Origin: Enchytraeus crypticus
Lineage: Eukaryota > Annelida > Clitellata > Enchytraeida > Enchytraeidae
Direction: 5' to 3'
Assembly (NCBI GenBank): GCA_905160935.1
Contig: CAJHZI010000476.1
Coordinates: forward strand, 246,001 to 310,000
Length of the DNA stretch: 64,000 nt
The position numbers and the translations under genes were made by a program. Positions 2,112 to 62,762 of this stretch are shown here, piece by piece (within the stretch, counting starts at the first letter, position 1; every line of letters begins with the position of its first letter). The notes under the pieces are model-generated. The model did no database searches and was not told the origin of the DNA. It worked only from the letters and a program-made list of their open reading frames with translations.

Positions 2112-2335
2112 CCTCAACAGCTCCGCTACGATTGTGTTTTCTTTCACATGCACTTCCAGCCTGGGACCTCCGATGAAGACTGGAGGATGTTCATTGACGT
2201 CGAGCACATGCACGGTGACTACTGCGGTTGTGTTGAGAGAATTGACGTCATCTGCCGGTCCATCGATAACCATCACTACCAGAGTGTGTGTGACTGCTGA
2301 CTCACCGTCTAATTCCGCAGCAACCTCTAACTGAC
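2112..2335 (-). CDS. Exon 23: end of cadherin repeat 6, start of repeat 7
   Basis: Phase 1 to phase 0, acceptor TATTTTCAG and donor TTGAGG|GTATGT. Encodes GQLEVAAELDGESAVTHTL, TTAVVTVHVLDVNEHPPVF and LEVHVKENTIVAELL. The V-x-V-L-D-V-N-E-H-P-P-x-F linker and K-E-N strand define the boundary of another cadherin repeat, which must continue in an exon at lower coordinates or outside the window. Confidence 0.92.

Positions 2336-62762: not shown

Follow-up and report, generated by a model that had tools for sequence, protein, structure and literature searches.

In a giant gene from the annelid Enchytraeus crypticus, exons 1-21 encode a central region of ~1,240 residues that is, by sequence comparison, homologous from end to end to a module found in giant bacterial proteins. 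In these searches, the region was otherwise met only in huge bacterial proteins. As read from the sequence, the module order is beta, NEW3-like, Cna-B-like, FETxVP, Cys/Gly-rich linker, helical, EGVCA block and terminal domain, and cadherin repeats follow in the same reading frame. The module was probably acquired from bacteria long ago and fused into a giant membrane-anchored annelid adhesion protein. The reading frame, the homology and the order of the domains are observed directly.

Structure of the gene within the window

The window is the whole stretch of DNA that was analysed, 64,000 nucleotides in length. As the initial annotation had proposed, 23 exons were placed on the minus strand between 62762 and 2112, separated by 22 GT-AG introns that all keep the phase. 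The frame is free of stops across the spliced exons, but it comprises 1,990 codons rather than the 2,024 given before (34 fewer); the donor of exon 21 is uncertain, and 3970 is used in the model. The exon numbering agrees, with exon 9 at 45877-45634, exons 17-20 at 12276-6541 and the cadherin repeats in exons 21-23.

Exon 1, 62443..62762 (-): rest of the PIG (He_PIG) domain and module start; tblastn E 5.8e-10 against Phycisphaerales L020.
Exon 2, 61060..61168 (-): first beta domain of the module, without a Pfam name; in phase; profile positions 256-283 matched in order, weak alone (E 8.7).
Exon 3, 58795..58955 (-): next beta domain, NEW3-like by eye; weak donor; codon score 19; within the single 812-bit alignment described below.
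Exon 4, 57942..58066 (-): same NEW3-like (by eye) beta domain as exon 3; in phase, strong donor.
Exon 5, 56309..56475 (-): NEW3-like domain, low coding score; profile E 0.014, in order; tblastn 8.9e-5 against Calothrix L024.
Exon 6, 55611..55861 (-): NEW3-like domain; profile E 1.7e-6; bacterial counterpart with a Pfam NPCBM_assoc match below cut-off.
Exon 7, 55060..55201 (-): Cna-B-like domain, first part; profile E 2e-9; bacterial counterpart with CarboxypepD_reg/SdrD_B matches (Pfam).
Exon 8, 46645..46787 (-): Cna-B-like domain, second part; profile E 1.2e-8.
Exon 9, 45634..45877 (-): WSVTP / FETxVPxPVV beta domain; profile E 2e-24; best tblastn E 2e-16.
Exon 10, 40955..41076 (-): end of the exon-9 FETxVP domain; in phase; weak tblastn match (0.33), in order.
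Exon 11, 32687..32844 (-): Cys-containing stretch and Gly-rich linker; in phase; bacteria-like Cys/Gly pattern by eye.
Exon 12, 30099..30225 (-): Cys-rich stretch, low coding score; in phase; Cys spacing by eye.
Exon 13, 28704..28904 (-): hydrophobic/helical stretch, low confidence; in phase.
Exon 14, 22828..23004 (-): helical stretch; in phase, good splice sites.
Exon 15, 14296..14584 (-): helical domain; HMM of 34 bacterial sequences, E 4.7e-10.
Exon 16, 13868..13933 (-): last helix ahead of the EGVCA domain; weak donor; in phase.
Exon 17, 12087..12276 (-): EGVCAKVRI domain; profile E 2.3e-20.
Exon 18, 11108..11386 (-): GGTLYYT domain; profile E 1.4e-33.
Exon 19, 8883..9185 (-): SAQPxIxxNEKGLLI domain; profile E 1.3e-48; tblastn E 1.9e-29.
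Exon 20, 6541..6767 (-): HELLHVVRVD region; profile E 1.9e-13.
Exon 21, 3970..5565 (-): a single open frame for the last domain of bacterial type (about 5565-5330) and, after it, cadherin repeats.
Exon 22, 2697..3045 (-): cadherin repeats; PF00028 E 4.3e-8.
Exon 23, 2112..2335 (-): cadherin repeat; in phase with exons -1629..-1794 and -2427..-3313.

Intron phases 0, 1 and 2 occur 8, 6 and 8 times over the 22 introns; the module is therefore unlikely to have been assembled from symmetrical shuffled exons. An unaided codon-and-splice search of the window returned 29 exons, 13 of which agree with the final model in frame and at both ends. Among the 16 that are absent from it are retroelement stretches and other spurious ones, and two agree at one end. 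Exons 3, 4, 5, 10, 11, 12, 13, 14, 16 and 21 were set by phase and partly by bacterial likeness. The weak points of the model are the coding scores of exons 5 and 12, the donors of exons 3, 13 and 16, and the acceptor of exon 21.

Chance exons, an assembly chimaera or contamination might be suspected from the poor scores of exons 5, 12 and 13 taken alone and from the 16 unaided-search exons absent from the model. However, the module is split by introns with retroelement-like frames and lies on one contig, the cadherin repeats share an open frame with the last module domain, and the bacterial matches are ordered, with E values down to 1e-48. Contamination is unlikely because the retroelement-like frames (by eye) lie in introns on a contig of 939,577 bases, within an assembly of 524 Mb in 802 contigs. 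An artefact of any of these kinds is scarcely credible. The retroelement-like open frames are located at 49750-51467, 37994-38872 and 24716-26279, with reverse-transcriptase motifs recognized by eye. Intron 18/19 contains a long array (about 9990-11090), in which all three plus-strand frames read HYYIITLL repeats.

The proposed join to cadherin was borne out: in exon 21, the last module domain and the cadherin repeats are read without a stop in one frame, 5586-3904. The terminal domain of the module gave a match that is modest alone (tblastn E 4.1e-5 against L019 at 5574-5434), and the i-E of 0.015 obtained with an HMM of the tail is the best among 5,286 frames. Cadherin matches exon 21 in four stretches within 5370-3970 (E 4.1e-51), and the whole cadherin region of the gene matches PF00028 in seven stretches (E 1.1e-89) as tandem EC repeats.

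Homology to giant bacterial proteins

The spliced protein aligns to a profile of 65 bacterial proteins in one co-linear alignment over animal residues 148-1391, with a score of 812 bits that is partly model-dependent, because phase and, in part, homology served to fix ten of the 23 exons. The same module order in giant bacterial proteins, as stated in the initial annotation, is thereby supported. The reversed and shuffled proteins score -2.0 and -7.0 bits on the same profile; with two other bacterial alignments, the spliced protein scores 264 and 417 bits. A frame-by-frame search of the minus strand of 234 kb, without the gene model, showed nine of 5,286 frames matching the profile below E 1e-3, all in the gene and in profile order. 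Three weaker frames (E 0.014, 0.49 and 8.7) are also in order, and the next frames have E values of 13 or worse. With 83 bacterial segments as tblastn queries against both strands of the 234 kb, the matches at E ≤ 1e-3 are confined to this gene. Three of these matches, from L069, L071 and L094, fall on the cadherin exons and presumably represent cadherin-like or PIG domains. Exon 9 and exons 17-20, singled out beforehand as a check on the bacterial likeness, match well above background (E 2e-24 and E 1.9e-13 to 1.3e-48, respectively).

The four-exon block 12276-6541 (333 residues) matches four of 72,556 plasmid records, from Nostoc, Methylomonas (two) and Eleftheria. The best match, to Nostoc, has 43.2% identity over the 333 residues (E 7e-76). 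This Nostoc protein is 4,599 residues long and shows ordered matches to seven exons, of which two are weak (E 0.004 and 0.061). The block is 39-47% identical to the plasmid loci and to the best loci from genomes; isolates and a complete plasmid are among these loci. Of the near-invariant columns (conserved in at least 98.5% of 69 bacterial sequences), the animal keeps 39 of 44, and it keeps 31 of 45 columns conserved at 90-98.5%, suggesting purifying selection on the module block. The ordered matches, the controls and the kept invariant columns rule out chance or generic beta-sandwich likeness, the objection raised with the first description of the gene.

The scan of bacterial and archaeal genomes confirmed at least 309 of 590 candidate stretches as relatives. 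The best 80 of these loci and three plasmid loci form the bacterial set of 83 proteins, many of them cut by contig ends, and 54 of the 83 contain the module in one stretch. Bacterial scores on the profile range from 377 to 2,011 bits (median 1,686), the low ones partly from contig-cut proteins. The animal score is well under this median, as would be expected of a long-separated relative.

The 333-residue block matches nothing in Pfam or NCBIfam, and the profile of 69 sequences matches no PDB chain at E ≤ 1. In the bacterial relatives, Pfam names only parts of the module, namely CarboxypepD_reg/SdrD_B for the Cna-B-like domain and NPCBM_assoc (NEW3, below cut-off). The bacterial source class is thus widespread but unannotated, and the conserved block together with the domain order provides a first handle for naming this bacterial family. 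The module is unmatched in 50,697 phage records, and three of 104 pattern-matching stretches of viral contigs encode a relative; on these counts, a phage origin was rejected.

The Nostoc protein WP_256872037 ('Calx-beta domain-containing protein'), L018 and L020 share the whole co-linear module with the animal protein, whereas the bacterial flanks are different (the Calx-beta name in Nostoc, CARDB in L019 and a PIG array in L020). Among L019, L020, L090 and L018, some of the module-bearing proteins have dockerin-like repeats at the C terminus, assigned by Pfam below cut-off in L019 and by eye in the others, and a cyanobacterial module protein has an RTX-like end (by eye). The module thus moves from one anchoring system to another. 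None of the 83 bacterial proteins, many of which are contig-cut, contains the cadherin motif D-x-[ND]-D-[NEH]-x-P-x-[FI], and a bacterial protein already carrying cadherin was rejected as the source of the join. A PIG motif precedes the module in four of 66 bacterial proteins. In a Methylomonas koyamae plasmid (L002:1-11196), the front of the module (NEW3, Cna-B-like, WSVTE) is located between a beta-helix region and RHS repeats (PF05593, 11 stretches), and the back part is a separate gene downstream of the front part (L002:13914-16085). This plasmid provides a link between the module and the RHS family, which is thought to be the source of the teneurins.

The gene beyond the window

The extent 62762-2112 given by the initial annotation contains the 23 exons but cuts a larger gene at both ends. 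The whole gene is predicted to span ~110 kb, from a signal peptide to a membrane helix. A signal-peptide-like exon is predicted at +107424, followed in the predicted order by kringle, F5/8C, a beta-helix-like exon, SRCR, AbfB, Beta_helix, EGF, TIG and an EGF-bearing exon. AbfB, Beta_helix (E 1.7e-14), EGF, TIG and PIG are above the Pfam cut-offs; kringle (21.5 bits), F5/8C (23.6 bits) and SRCR (18.6 bits, cut-off 26.1) are under theirs, and Pfam recognizes nothing in the first long beta-helix-like exon. From the EGF-bearing exon onward, the protein comprises 2,412 residues. Further upstream than the signal-peptide exon, exon candidates at +123800 to +133000 on the minus strand, outside the window, apparently belong to another gene.

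To the left of the window, cadherin exons are followed by a Ser/Thr-rich stretch, a membrane helix, CCCVYFNK and a stop ~3.3 kb past the window's left end (-3313), with ATTAAA 21 bases on. By this stop, the cytoplasmic tail is ~9 residues long after the membrane helix. Weak donors at -3283 and -3309, ahead of the stop, make another ending possible.

The locus could instead comprise two or three neighbouring genes, with a secreted protein of bacterial type encoded apart from the cadherin, or with the beta-helix/SRCR part forming a gene of its own upstream, since the 5' half is predicted from codon and splice scores alone. However, the frame 5586-3904 spans the last module domain and the cadherin repeats. 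At the other end of the module, PF05345 scores 23.7 bits on exon 1 alone and 24.9 bits (cut-off 24) when exon 1 is joined to exon 65879-65664, an EGF-bearing exon just outside the window that contains the first half of the PIG domain. Separate genes are thus improbable.

In the host assembly, the best-scoring candidates include no second locus for the four-exon block, exons 7-9 or the AbfB exon; paralogues were rejected on this finding of one locus for each of the three queries. The bacterial tail has no match anywhere in the worm's own genome, an uninformative result. The beta-helix exon is unmatched among plasmids, a search for the mollusc haemocyanin domain gave no match, with its controls also silent, and Rfam returned nothing.

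Origin of the module

The relatives of the module, among the best 80 of at least 309 genome relatives and the plasmids, are mainly from Verrucomicrobiota, Cyanobacteriota and Planctomycetota. A tree of the exon 17-20 block, suggested with the first description as a check, contains 84 rows, comprising 45 Verrucomicrobiota, 14 Cyanobacteriota, 10 Planctomycetota, 6 Pseudomonadota, 2 Armatimonadota, 1 Myxococcota and six rows without a group (the animal, three plasmids and two bacteria). Like all trees here, it is a 'quick' tree. It places the animal outside the supported bacterial groups (in no starred set), with an end branch of 1.19, and picks no donor. Placement of the animal with Cyanobacteria was not rejected by an AU test (p 0.722), and neither was its placement with 60 rows that are mainly Verrucomicrobia/Planctomycetes (p 0.679). 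Both constrained trees outscored the free quick tree, which is therefore not the best.

In a long alignment of 1,042 columns, the animal groups at 98 with two Planctomycetota, L017 and L020, which are two of the four PIG-motif proteins. Removal of the PIG columns (880 columns left) abolished this grouping, and a Planctomycete donor, proposed on the grouping and the upstream PIG motif, was rejected. The animal branch is very long in both long trees (3.16 and 2.99), in which many rows have odd composition. The origin appears to be bacterial-type and old, with no single donor group picked by the trees or the AU tests.

The initial annotation had left a choice between an old transfer from bacteria and an ancient adhesion protein shared more widely. 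The intron-bearing animal gene, the co-linear bacterial homology and the cadherin join on which both readings rest are upheld, and both readings stand. According to the second, the module is pre-animal or early eukaryotic, the cadherin join is old and the worm is one carrier of an ancient eukaryotic or holozoan protein. This agrees with an old bacterial acquisition on the homology and differs in when and where the capture took place. It is consistent with the long branch, with the finding that none of the best 80 bacterial loci (of at least 309) is a close donor, with the mixed intron phases (8/6/8) and with the teneurins, for which a transfer before animals has been proposed (PMC6297184). However, the module was seen here in one eukaryote, with a comparison set of bacterial, archaeal, plasmid, phage and viral sequences, and an ancient protein is a serious but somewhat less probable reading. 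The opposite direction, in which bacteria received the module from a eukaryote, animal or otherwise, could be accommodated by the unsettled root of the trees, and nothing else was found for it. Against it, the block-tree rows span six bacterial phyla, 54 of 83 bacterial proteins have the module in one stretch, and one locus was found in the animal genome; this direction is very unlikely. For the preferred reading, an old acquisition from bacteria, we infer the direction of the transfer and its age.

Proposed assembly and comparison with known adhesion proteins

An ancestor of the worm would have taken the module from a bacterium long ago, and some 20 introns would later have arisen within it. 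Upstream, the captured module would have been joined to kringle, F5/8C, beta-helix, SRCR, AbfB, EGF and TIG domains; on its downstream side it would have acquired the cadherin repeats and the membrane helix. In the resulting protein, the module may form a long stalk of mostly beta domains that holds the N-terminal domains off the cell, and the cadherin repeats adjoining the membrane may confer calcium-dependent stiffness or homophilic contact. If the stop is used, the ~9-residue tail would point to adhesion via the extracellular part rather than catenins. Its three inner-face cysteines may be acylation sites. A classical cadherin has a catenin-binding cytoplasmic domain; the predicted stop would leave ~9 residues after the membrane helix, with the weak donors allowing another ending.

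Teneurins (YD-repeat receptors) are large animal adhesion proteins in which EGF-like domains are joined to a bacterial-type giant surface region, and a bacterial transfer has been proposed for them (PMC6297184). The worm gene resembles them in this arrangement but has another bacterial module, and its cadherin repeats are next to the membrane. RHS/YD repeats, the teneurin hallmark, were not matched in the pieces of the worm gene scanned. On balance, domestication of the ~1,240-residue bacterial module as a stalk between EGF/TIG-type and cadherin domains is rather favoured as a second, independent teneurin-like case. If true, animal adhesion machinery was built from a bacterial part a second, independent time. 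Animal adhesion proteins thought to be of bacterial origin are few. If the module were met in further animals, this would put a date on the capture and would test whether parts of the animal adhesion toolkit came more than once from bacterial surface proteins.

Cohesin is a bacterial domain. TMEM132, an animal adhesion molecule, has a homologue of the cohesin domain, described in the source as the first reported in animals (PMC6030884); the worm protein has another domain and architecture. A screen of 319 arthropod genomes described HGT-chimeras (PMC13389597), which, like the worm gene with its exon 21 and in-phase splicing, combine non-animal and animal intervals in one frame. In contrast to these, the foreign-type interval of the worm gene is ~1,240 residues long and lies inside an adhesion protein; the words 'cadherin', 'adhesion' and 'annelid' are absent from the main text of that report. 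Among the cases met, and as far as their sources describe them, teneurins and TMEM132 are the nearest published animal adhesion proteins with bacterial-type domains and the arthropod HGT-chimeras the nearest class, and none shows this module. Among the titles and abstract openings listed from open-licence literature, no description of the module-cadherin architecture was found.

Anakonda/Bark beetle has a signal peptide, SRCR, right-handed parallel beta-helices and a membrane helix, and its accumulation at vertices is reported to need the extracellular but not the cytoplasmic domain (PMC11698045). The predicted worm protein resembles it in a signal-peptide-like exon, a Beta_helix match over cut-off and a membrane helix, with SRCR (under cut-off) as a candidate common domain, and differs in adding the bacterial-type module and cadherin repeats. 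Its predicted very short tail recalls Anakonda's dependence on the extracellular domain. CUB and C-type lectin domains were not matched in the 10 worm pieces scanned, from a gene model that is incomplete at the 5' end.

Mitochondrial sequences in the assembly

The mitochondrial contig of the assembly (15,205 bases) reads TGA as Trp. The protein genes found on it, named by eye, share a strand and run nad5-nad4L-nad4-(rRNA region)-nad1-nad3-nad2-cox1-cox2-cox3-nad6-cob-atp6. This corresponds to the annelid gene order, so that the host looks annelid by its mitochondrial genes too. Five COX1 pieces are located outside this contig, L114 and L115 (on C361 and C424) and others on C796, C373 and C166. 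Four of the five contain TAA or TAG stops, and the pieces resemble nuclear copies of mitochondrial DNA.
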